64,000 nucleotides of DNA from Bifidobacterium breve (lineage in GTDB: Bacteria > Actinomycetota > Actinomycetes > Nanopelagicales > Nanopelagicaceae), in NCBI GenBank assembly GCA_945881945.1, contig CAMCVO010000004.1, positions 1 through 64,000 of the forward strand, given 5' to 3'. The notes under the pieces are model-generated. The model ran no database searches, was not told where the DNA came from, and saw nothing but the letters and a program-made list of their open reading frames with translations. Numbering within the stretch: position 1 is the stretch's first letter; the number at the start of each line of letters is the position of its first letter. The translations under genes were made by a program, and so were the position numbers. Below are positions 49,163 through 55,141 of the stretch, piece by piece.

Positions 49163-49804
49163 TTAAGGGTATAGATTTATTGAAATTAATCGATCACTTA
49201 ACTTAATTCCAAGTCGGCCAACTGTTATATATGCCAAATACGCACCAGCCTCCCGCGCTAAGTACTTATATCCAGAGTTTGCAACCGATGCCGGTCCAGT
49301 TTCAACTGGCGCACAGGATGCGATGAGTCCTAAATCTTTAGCCATTTTTACAGAGCGAAAGCAGTGATATGGATCAGTCACAATTACAACTGAACTTAAC
49401 TTCACCTTTTTCATAGCCTCTGCATAAGCTTGTGTACTACCTAAGGTATCTCGCCCCTTTGCAATTGATGAGATATTAGATCTTTTAACACCATTATCAA
49501 TTAACCAAGCTCTACTAGCTGCTGCCTCAGTGGTTCGATCCCCCGGTGCACCAGAGCCCACAGTGTAAATTTTTGGTGCTAGCCCTGCTTTGTAAACCTT
49601 TAAACTCTCTTGCAATCTAGATTGCAATACCTCACTTGGCCGGCCATCAAATTGGGCAGCCCCCATTACTAAAATAACATCAGATTTAACTGGAGATGAG
49701 TTTCTTGCTGAGTACCATATACTTCCTGCTACATACAATGGAATGACAATAATTAGAAGTAAAACAAATGAGATTATCCGTCTAATAAATTTAAAGATAA
49801 ACAA
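49163..49804 (-). CDS. DUF218 / YdcF-SanA-like membrane-anchored protein
   Basis: A 213-residue protein with one N-terminal membrane helix (ISFVLLLIIVIPLYVAG) and a DUF218 domain: VILVMGAAQFDGRPSEVLQSRL, then TEAAASRAWLIDNGV and VTDPYHCFRS. SanA/YdcF proteins act in envelope integrity or bind S-adenosylmethionine; the precise role is unsettled. The stop-to-start spacing to dusB is 5 bases. Confidence 0.85.
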   Translation of the reverse strand: MFIFKFIRRIISFVLLLIIVIPLYVAGSIWYSARNSSPVKSDVILVMGAAQFDGRPSEVLQSRLQESLKVYKAGLAPKIYTVGSGAPGDRTTEAAASRAWLIDNGVKRSNISSIAKGRDTLGSTQAYAEAMKKVKLSSVVIVTDPYHCFRSVKMAKDLGLIASCAPVETGPASVANSGYKYLAREAGAYLAYITVGRLGIKLSDRLISINLYP

Positions 49805-50976: not shown

Positions 50977-52356
50977 TTAGCAGCCTAATAATTTTGTGGC
51001 TAGATAATTTTGAACCTGATCGAGTGCAATACGAGATTGAGCCATACTGTCACGCTCTCGAATTGTTACCGCTTGATCCTCTAAGCTTTCAAAATCAATT
51101 GTGATACAAAATGGTGTGCCAATCTCATCTTGACGGCGATAACGTCTGCCGATCGCACCCGCATCATCAAAATCCACATTCCAATGCTTGCGCAAAGAGG
51201 TAGCTAAATCCTTAGCTTTTGGCGATAGATCAGCATTTCTTGATAGCGGCAGCACGCCAATCTTTACTGGGGCTAGTCGGTAATCTAATTTCATCAGCGC
51301 CCGCTTTTCCATCTCACCCTTGGAGTTTGGCGCCTCATCCTCGGTGTAGGCATCTAACATAAATGTAAGTGCGCAACGATCAACACCAGCTGCTGGTTCA
51401 ATTACATAAGGCGTCCAGCGCTCATTTTTTTCCTGATCAAACCAAGTTAAATTCTCACCCGATGCTCTTGAGTGTGATTTCAAATCAAAATCAGTTCGGT
51501 TAGCAATTCCTTCTAACTCACCCCACTCAGTTCCAGCAAACTCAAACTTGTACTCAATATCTGCAGTTCGCTTTGAGTAGTGAGAGAGTTTTTCCTTTGG
51601 ATGTTCAAAGACTCGAAGTCGATCTGGATTTATTCCTAAATCTTTATACCAAGCTAATCTGGTATCAATCCAGTATTGATGCCACTCTTCATCTGTTCCT
51701 GGGACAACAAAAAACTCCATCTCCATCTGTTCAAACTCACGAGTTCTAAAGATAAAGTTTCCTGGGGTAATCTCATTTCTAAAAGATTTACCAATCTGGC
51801 CAATACCAAATGGTGGTTTCTTACGCGAGGTTGATGCCACATTATCAAAGTTAATAAAGATTCCCTGTGCAGTCTCTGGTCGTAAATATGCCAAACCAGA
51901 TTCATCCTCTACTGGTCCAAGATAGGTTTTTAGCAAACCTGAAAATTGTTTAGGAGCGGTAAACTTTCCCTTGGTGCCACAGTTTGGGCAATTAATCTCA
52001 GTAAGTGAGGCAGCTTTTTTCTTATGCTTATTTTCATAAGCCTCTTCTAAATGATCAGCCCGGTGGCGCTTATGACAACTTGTGCACTCAGTTAATGGAT
52101 CAGAGAATGTCTCAACATGACCAGAGGCTTGCCAAACCTCGCGGGCTAAAATTACGCAAGAATCTAATCCGACTACATCATCTCTGCCTTGCACCATGGA
52201 TTTCCACCACTGGCGCTTAATATTATTTTTTAATTAAACTCCAAGTGGACCGTAATCCCAGGAGGCGCGAAGTCCGCCATAAATTTCAGATGAGGGGTAA
52301 ACAAAACCACGCCTCTTAGCTAAGGAAACAATTGTCTCTAAACGATCTTGGGCCAT
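50977..52356 (-). CDS. glyS: Glycine--tRNA ligase, interrupted by an in-frame TAA at codon 41
   Basis: This is the single-subunit (eukaryote-like alpha2) GlyRS. Read from the ATG at 52356, with GGAGA five bases upstream, the frame gives a family-typical N-terminus ([15 protein letters not shown], then [18 protein letters not shown]), then TAA, then [16 protein letters not shown] and the rest to 50977. Without the stop the length would be 459 residues, as expected. Homologues have GPLGVELK here, so TAA stands for GAA: one base change. The remainder has the [25 protein letters not shown] core and is intact. A shorter frame could start at ATG 52197 but would lack the N-terminal part of the catalytic domain. 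Sequencing error, readthrough and a real mutation are all possible. Confidence 0.88.
52234..52236 (-). other. In-frame TAA codon within glyS
   Basis: On the minus strand GTT (52239-52237) is followed by TAA (52236-52234) and TTA. The frame is unchanged on both sides: 120 bases from the ATG at 52356, and continuous to the end of the gene. A G in place of the first T would give GAA (Glu), the residue expected in GPLGVELK. Confidence 0.9.
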
Positions 52357-52475
52357 TTGATCTCCATCCGGCTGGCTGTCGGCGGCTTGCTATTGGCTTA
52401 AGTGTAGGGGTTAGGCATATCTATCTAGCCAAAGGCAAGGGTTATGGGCGGATCTAGGCTTGCGAGAAATGATAT

Positions 52476-52490
52476 TGATAATCATTATCA
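52476..52490. promoter_or_regulatory. Fur/Zur-type operator upstream of the ZIP transporter
   Basis: TGATAATCATTATCA is a perfect 7-1-7 inverted repeat and very close to the classical Fur-box (GATAATGATAATCATTATC). It lies four bases before a TATGAT -10 hexamer (52494-52499), so a bound repressor would block the promoter. The linked gene for a Fur-family protein makes a zinc-responsive (Zur) or iron-responsive site likely. Confidence 0.8.
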
Positions 52491-52493
52491 TTT

Positions 52494-52499
52494 TATGAT
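52494..52499 (+). promoter_or_regulatory. -10 element of the ZIP-fur operon, probable leaderless start
   Basis: TATGAT ends 11 bases before the ATG at 52511. Transcription would start within about five bases of the ATG, leaving no room for a Shine-Dalgarno, so translation is probably leaderless. Confidence 0.5.
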
Positions 52500-52510
52500 A
52501 CAGTCTTGGT

Positions 52511-53257
52511 ATGAACATCGCACTTGTACTTGCCGCAGTAACTGCCATAGCAACCACCATGGGTGGATTGCTCGCTATTAAGTCCCGTGATCGGCTGCAT
52601 ATAGTTCTTGGATTAGCAGCTGGATTACTTTTAGGTCTGGTTGCTTTTGATCTACTCCCCGAGGTTTTTGAGTTAAATACCAACGAAATACTGCACGCAC
52701 CAGCTGTATCGGTGGCATTTGTAGCTGGGTTTATGTTGCTACACCTATTTGAAAGAGCTTTAGGCTCACATGAACCATCAGATTCAGAGTATGCAACCGA
52801 TCATAAGCACACTCACAACATAGCTGGAACAGTTGGCGCACTAACCATGAGCGGCCATGTATTCCTAGATGGCGTCGCCCTTGGAATAGCCTTTCAAGTT
52901 AGCAATTCATTAGGGTTTGCAATATTTGTAGCACTTTTAGTGCATGCTTTTAGCGATGGATTAAACACTGTTTCATTATTGATTAAGAGTGGAAACTGGA
53001 CAAAACGAGGGATTTGGCTGCTTGGAGTTGATGCCGTCATGCGAATTGGCGGTGCGGCTTTTGGTACTTATATTTCAATTAGCGATCCACTCCTTGGTCT
53101 ATACCTTGCGGTATTTGCTGGAATGTTAATTTACTTAGCGACCTCACACATCTTGCCAGAGGCCCATGCCAAGCACAGTTCAAAGCTAACAATGCTTGCA
53201 ACATTTGTGGGAATCATTGTGATGTGGCTAGTGGTAGCCAATTTACCTCATGAGTAA
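52511..53257 (+). CDS. ZIP-family metal transporter
   Basis: A 248-residue membrane protein with about eight hydrophobic segments. The ZIP signature helices are visible: SGHVFLDGVALGIAF (fourth) and LVHAFSDGLNT (fifth), which line the metal site; a His-containing loop (DHKHTHNIAG) lies before them. ZIP proteins move Zn2+ or related divalent ions into the cytosol. It is controlled by the operator at 52476 and overlaps the Fur-family gene by 8 bp, forming an autoregulated pair. Confidence 0.88.
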   Translation: MNIALVLAAVTAIATTMGGLLAIKSRDRLHIVLGLAAGLLLGLVAFDLLPEVFELNTNEILHAPAVSVAFVAGFMLLHLFERALGSHEPSDSEYATDHKHTHNIAGTVGALTMSGHVFLDGVALGIAFQVSNSLGFAIFVALLVHAFSDGLNTVSLLIKSGNWTKRGIWLLGVDAVMRIGGAAFGTYISISDPLLGLYLAVFAGMLIYLATSHILPEAHAKHSSKLTMLATFVGIIVMWLVVANLPHE

Positions 53258-53615
53258 ATCACTCCCAGCTGTAATTACAACCCTTGAGCGCGCTGGAGGT
53301 TTTGCCAGTGCGCAGGAGGTTTTTCAATTAATGAGAAAACAGGGTAAGCCAACTGGATTAGCAACCGTTTATCGCGCATTGCAAAAGGCTGCTACTGATA
53401 ACACAGTAGATGTTATTAGAAAAGATGACGGTGAAGCTTTGTACCGATTATGCGCAACCGGACATCATCACCACTTAGTTTGCACCAGTTGTGGCAAAAC
53501 AGTTGAGGTTGAAGGAAGCGCTGTTGAAAAATGGGCAAATTCAGTTGCTAAAAACAATGGATTTAAAAAAGTTTCCCATGTGGTTGAGCTATTTGGTTTA
53601 TGCCAAAAGTGTTGA
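53250..53615 (+). CDS. zur: Fur-family metalloregulator (probable Zur)
   Basis: A 121-residue Fur-family repressor. A winged-helix part (GGFASAQEVFQLM...GLATVYRALQKA) is followed by the metal-sensing HHHHLVCTSCGK motif and a C-terminal GLCQKC, giving the two CxxC structural zinc pairs. Pairing with a ZIP importer, and the glyS/zur/uppS/recO neighbourhood familiar from mycobacteria, favour zinc sensing (Zur) over iron. It overlaps the importer gene by 8 bp and converges on uppS. Confidence 0.87.
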   Translation: MSKSLPAVITTLERAGGFASAQEVFQLMRKQGKPTGLATVYRALQKAATDNTVDVIRKDDGEALYRLCATGHHHHLVCTSCGKTVEVEGSAVEKWANSVAKNNGFKKVSHVVELFGLCQKC

Positions 53616-54408: not shown

Positions 54409-55141
54409 GACTTATTCTCTCAACTAATGGCAGGGATCGTAAGCCTCGCTCTAAGTGCCACTGCAGGTAGGCAGCGATTAAGCCAGAGGCCTCATTTCGA
54501 TTCTTACTCTCACTCTCAACCGCTTGCTCCCAATCTCCGGTTAGTAAATTGGCCATCAAATCTAATGTTGCCTGGGCTGGAGCAGCAGATGCTGATGGCT
54601 TACAGCTTGGGCATACTGAGCCACCACCTTGCAGTGAGAAAAACTTGTGTGGACCTGGCGCATCACACCTTGAGCAAACTGTTAATGAAGGGGCGTATCC
54701 GGCAACTGCTAATGATCTCAGTAGGTAGGCATCTAAAATTAATGAGGCATCATATTTTTTCTCAGCTAAAACCTTTAACGATCCACTTACCAGTAGATAT
54801 TGTTGCAAGGCTGGCTCATGCTCTGCCTGGGTGAAACGCTCTGCTGCCTCCAAAATTGCACTTGCCACAGTCCAGCTTTGATAATCACTAGATAAAACAT
54901 CGCCATAATTTTCAATACTTACTACCTGGGTAATAGTGTCAAAGGTGCGGCCGGTATATAACTGCAGATCAACATAACTTGCCGGTTCCAGCCTGGCGCC
55001 AAATCTAGATTTAGTTCTACGTACACCCTTTGCCACCGCTTTGATCCGGCCATGTTCTTTTGTAAATAAGGTAATTATCCGATCTGCCTCACCAAGTTTT
55101 TGGGTGCGAAGCACAATCGCCTGATCTCGGTATAACGGCAT
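54401..55141 (-). CDS. recO: DNA repair protein RecO
   Basis: A 246-residue RecO. An N-terminal OB-fold (YRDQAIVLRTQKLGEADRII) is followed by a helical part and a zinc site CSRC...CPSC. RecO loads RecA with RecR in RecF-type repair. It lies 35 bases after leuA and overlaps uppS, so the three may be read together. Order recO-uppS is conserved in actinobacteria as I know it. Confidence 0.93.
   Translation of the reverse strand: MPLYRDQAIVLRTQKLGEADRIITLFTKEHGRIKAVAKGVRRTKSRFGARLEPASYVDLQLYTGRTFDTITQVVSIENYGDVLSSDYQSWTVASAILEAAERFTQAEHEPALQQYLLVSGSLKVLAEKKYDASLILDAYLLRSLAVAGYAPSLTVCSRCDAPGPHKFFSLQGGGSVCPSCKPSASAAPAQATLDLMANLLTGDWEQAVESESKNRNEASGLIAAYLQWHLERGLRSLPLVERISRG

Follow-up and report, generated by a model that had tools for sequence, protein, structure and literature searches.

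The bacterial alpha2 (dimeric) type of glycine--tRNA ligase (GlyRS), described by the profiles NF003211 and TIGR00389, carries a nearly invariant glutamate at residue 41. Of the pseudogenes with an internal stop in bacterial assemblies, an excerpt of the study by Cooley and Wright (2024, PMC11017572) attributes many to technical causes and reports them as commoner at low coverage; metagenome assemblies fall outside the scope of that study as excerpted. The gene described here, a glyS on the minus strand of a 64,000-nucleotide stretch (the window, 41.8% GC), resembles the spurious cases of that excerpt in being a conserved gene with an isolated stop that is absent from neighbours and lies in a draft assembly. 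It differs from other alpha2 GlyRS genes by a single TAA at the codon for Glu41. From the evidence below we infer a technical origin of this stop.

The interrupted glyS gene and its surroundings

The minus-strand frame running from the ATG at 52356 to the TAA at 50979–50977 comprises 460 codons including the final stop, and contains exactly one internal stop, a TAA at 52236–52234 (codon 41; local peptide GPLGV*LKNNIK). An initial annotation made from the sequence alone had described this frame as GlyRS on both sides of its only stop, and translation together with the NF003211 match bears this out. Codons 1–40 (52237..52356, minus strand) and codons 42–459 with the final stop (50977..52233, minus strand) are both intact and match the family, and the profile positions adjoin across the interruption (2–35 before, 37–454 after). 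Codons 42–459 alone score 607 bits against a curated cut-off of 312 for NF003211. Both the core synthetase domain (PF00587) and the anticodon-binding domain (PF03129) are found above cut-off, and the best solved chains (8u2q, 8sld and 8t5n) are all glycine--tRNA ligases. Across its full 459 residues the frame can be aligned at 98% identity with the protein of a relative (G005), and a chance match need not be considered. Support for the start at 52356 comes from relatives sharing the N terminus MAQDRLE, in some of which, such as L002, a stop directly precedes the methionine. The gene at 50977..52356 is thus an alpha2 glycine--tRNA ligase gene of 459 codons and a stop, matched by NF003211 and TIGR00389, and interrupted as assembled: family sequence is present on both sides, but the TAA at codon 41 closes the frame of the N-terminal segment and the core. 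An AlphaFold model of the read-through protein had a mean pLDDT of 54.7, too poor to use.

A dusB gene lies downstream of glyS, and a ZIP-type transporter gene and a Fur-family gene lie upstream in divergent orientation. The transporter region at 52601–53300 is 82–92% identical per 100 bases to congener G015 and 56–75% identical to congener G018 where aligned. For glyS and the sequence beyond 53600, G018 is a close match, mostly at over 80% identity. The segment 52601–53300 may therefore represent a block of recombination or gene replacement, ending before glyS, and the ancestry of the sequence may change around 52400–52600, upstream of the gene and not at codon 41. At the other end of the window, positions 1–261 match the Rfam cspA thermoregulator (87.3 bits, gathering threshold 78); the match is cut by the window start and probably belongs to a cold-shock gene.

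Codon 41 in relatives and selection on the gene

The genus set consists of 25 genomes, 20 of which, including the genome of the window, match the 5' region of glyS. Codon 41 can be read in 18 of the 19 other congeners (the exception is G007, whose contig stops short of it) and encodes glutamate in every one, as GAG in 12 and as GAA in six. A wider set of 80 named loci has glutamate at this codon in 79 cases and a stop in none, the sole exception being an alanine in Ornithinicoccus halotolerans (L152). The expectation of glutamate at the position of the TAA is thus supported, and among the relatives read the stop is seen in the genome of the window only. The nearest named relatives are mostly unclassified actinobacterial metagenome-assembled genomes, with one Candidatus Nanopelagicaceae, at 84–87% protein identity. 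The source of the window would accordingly be a low-GC actinobacterium of a similar kind, probably from fresh water. Searches for the stop-bearing sequence elsewhere gave weak negatives: a degenerate pattern had no exact match in a collection of genomic contigs (genome_contigs), where an exact match was required and the own genome is perhaps excluded, and the exact pattern had none among viral contigs (viral_contigs), where glyS is not expected.

It had been proposed that a single G-to-T change explains the stop. This is the minimum if the ancestral codon was GAA, as in six of the 18 congeners, but the two genomes nearest by DNA in the 5' region, G018 (95%) and G010 (94%), both have GAG, from which TAA is two bases away (52236 and 52234). 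Since GAA occurs in those six congeners, a silent step from GAG to GAA followed by the G-to-T change is a possible route. Only three positions between 52359 and 52211, namely 52323, 52236 and 52234, distinguish the window from G018. The change creates the palindrome TTTAATTAAA, which was considered as a sign of templated mutation and dropped as independent evidence: TAA is the only stop exactly two substitutions away from GAG, and the palindrome follows by necessity.

Leaving out codon 41, glyS has dN/dS values of 0.022–0.060 against ten congeners. Compared with G018, codons 1–40 contain no nonsynonymous and one synonymous difference, and the part after the stop contains 12 nonsynonymous codons and 97 synonymous differences. 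Where all ten congeners agree, only one other residue differs in the window gene (Y98H), and signs of pseudogene decay, that is, relaxed selection or further lesions, were not found within it. The low dN/dS and the isolated Y98H indicate that this GlyRS has been under normal selection until now, and that the stop is either very recent or not real.

The first ATG downstream of the stop (Met54; 52195..52197, minus strand) appears to be unsuitable as an alternative start. As previously noted for this ATG, initiation there would remove 53 residues, and an alignment of 23 sequences shows that L42, K43, N45, W50 and W51 among them are invariant.

Internal stops in draft assemblies

The genome containing the window is a draft of 1.10 Mb in 25 contigs, estimated to be 86.35% complete, and the contig concerned (C4) is 84 kb long. 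A survey of the order found a glyS match in 262 of 296 genomes, and the best 150 of these 262 by score were examined. An in-frame stop was present in two of the 150, the window gene and the glyS of G117, and a hand count found none in the 12 single-contig genomes among the same 150. What would be expected of an artefact, a lesion confined to one draft and absent from closed genomes, is thus what these best 150 of 262 matches show. The gene in G117 (L185, G117:C44:12500-14200) is likewise an otherwise intact glyS with a single in-frame TAA in a multi-contig draft. Its stop is at residue 237, a tyrosine in the window protein, rather than at codon 41, and represents an independent event.

Other kinds of damage were observed in glyS of congeners. 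In G010 the frame is shifted near residue 310, and in G020 residues 168–294 have been lost with a change of frame. G010 furthermore carries an additional, incomplete copy of the 5' part, which sits at the end of a contig (L191) and also contains frame changes; loci L189, L190 and L191 cover the broken genes of these two genomes. In a survey of the phylum, apparent internal stops in G442, G557 and G339 among the matches listed were rejected, since in each case the alignment had run past the gene's natural stop at the C terminus. In G339 the frame additionally changes near residue 57.

As a control, alaS showed no internal stop in the best 150 of 281 genomes with a match. Excluding the window gene, one of 299 synthetase genes (149 glyS and 150 alaS, hand counts) has an internal stop, a rate that may under-count damaged genes because both surveys were confined to the best 150 by score. 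For about 1,100 genes this rate corresponds to 3.7 such stops in a genome (95% interval 0.1–20), and one internal stop in a 1.1 Mb draft is therefore not surprising.

On the same contig, frames of at least 100 codons were compared with G005 (21 genes), G014 (22) and G018 (13), the three gene sets overlapping, and none showed a further internal stop or a change of frame. This comparison raised three more flags: those at 54414 and 65089 are close to the ends of genes, and the one on the transporter against G018 is explained by a shorter alignment (coverage 86%, identity 63%). A codon-usage scan for in-frame stops over 83 kb of the contig, a weak scan, ranked glyS sixth of 89. The five candidates above it were discarded: those at 49165, 61067 and 45012 are ends of open frames, and those at 78866 and 79049 are antisense to a 398-codon minus-strand frame.

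Origin of the stop codon

We consider it likely, with a probability of roughly three in four, that the TAA is absent from the living organism and represents a base-level consensus error of the draft assembly. This reading is favoured by the occurrence of the stop in this assembly only, the strong selection on the gene, the draft status of the genome and the comparable damage in other drafts. The error would have arisen from sequencing, from amplification or from the collapse of strain variants, and beneath it would lie an ordinary, intact and essential alpha2 glyS. Several observations sit less easily with it. A single miscall accounts for the two-base difference from the nearest relatives only if GAA was already present in the lineage; the contig is long, and its genes compared with G005, G014 and G018 are otherwise clean; the absence of internal stops from alaS in the best 150 of 281 genomes with a match speaks against such errors being common per gene; and the pseudogene study cited above carries the limitation of scope already mentioned. 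Nor is there a chimeric join at codon 41 to blame. A join at the stop was rejected, as identity profiles against ten relatives' sequences from nine genomes are alike on both sides, and both sides are equally close to G018.

The alternative that survives best, though we regard it as improbable, is that the nonsense mutation is genuine, arose very recently in the cell or strain that was sampled and is not functionally rescued, marking a dead or dying lineage or a minority allele taken up into the consensus. It would be consistent with a clean base substitution free of frameshift in an otherwise undecayed gene. Furthermore, 52236 and 52234 are the sole differences from G018 between 52322 and 52211, which looks like a short mutation cluster. 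In a population, however, a lethal allele would not be expected to dominate the consensus, and this explanation makes sense chiefly if the genome came from a single cell or if the assembly is very shallow.

It is far less probable that the stop is real and tolerated, with low-level readthrough of UAA or re-initiation just downstream yielding enough GlyRS. The frame and its length are intact, codon 41 tolerates at least one other residue (the alanine of L152), such that misread insertions might work, and an ATG follows at a distance of 39 bases from the first base of the TAA. Against this, an excerpt of work with E. coli reporters (PMC11126739) gives TAA as the least read-through stop, at a mean of 0.01–0.05% of wild type, and states that a T behind a stop codon raised termination accuracy; the base directly 3' of the internal TAA is a T. 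Both release factors, RF1 and RF2, are present in the genome, and none of the 31 tRNA loci found in this incomplete assembly has the anticodon UUA. TAA is moreover the commonest terminator, ending 47 of 67 frames of at least 200 codons over 83 kb of the contig. Re-initiation at Met54 would do without residues 41–53, several of them invariant. With RF1 and RF2 present, no UAA reader among the 31 tRNAs and TAA as the main terminator, readthrough or recoding of the glyS TAA is unsupported, and the initial annotation's option of readthrough finds no backing.

Slightly weaker still is the suggestion that a second, intact GlyRS is encoded in the missing part of the genome and that the window copy is a fresh pseudogene; the initial annotation had likewise named a second glyS elsewhere as an option. 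With an assembly about 86% complete, part of the genome is indeed unseen, and absence is no proof. The genome nevertheless contains one alpha2 GlyRS match, and the 5' part of glyS is present in one copy. A search for GlyQ found none in this 86.35% complete assembly, the same search being positive in eight of 14 controls. One alpha2 match each was found in the four congeners that are at least 90% complete (G001, G004, G005 and G014), and the window copy itself is under strong purifying selection. A second GlyRS gene was accordingly rejected as improbable, on an assembly of this completeness.

We give little credence to the more far-reaching proposal that the stop is real and fixed in the lineage, the cell living on a naturally throttled essential synthetase supplied by readthrough or re-initiation. 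Reassignment or specific recoding of TAA to glutamate, for which one could cite the expected residue and the continuing frame, can practically be dismissed: it is contradicted by the terminator usage, by the presence of RF1 and RF2 and by the lack of a UUA anticodon among the tRNAs found, and no relative read has a stop at codon 41. None of the marks of a recoded stop (a UAA-reading tRNA, conservation of the stop in relatives, and TAA otherwise unused or a release factor lost) was found here. The three options originally left side by side, namely an error, a mutation with readthrough and a second glyS, are thus no longer equal, the consensus error being favoured and the readthrough and second-gene options lacking support.

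Our literature search returned no paper tying metagenome-assembled genomes to a premature stop codon in an aminoacyl-tRNA synthetase, and none on a premature stop in Nanopelagicales. If real, the TAA would be a striking example of a nonsense codon naturally tolerated in a tRNA synthetase gene that exists in a single copy. If the favoured consensus error is correct, the living cell would have glutamate at codon 41 and make a normal GlyRS of 459 residues. The case calls for caution, as a small share of draft genomes contains single in-frame stops in essential genes, and such stops should be read as recoding only where sequencing reads support it.
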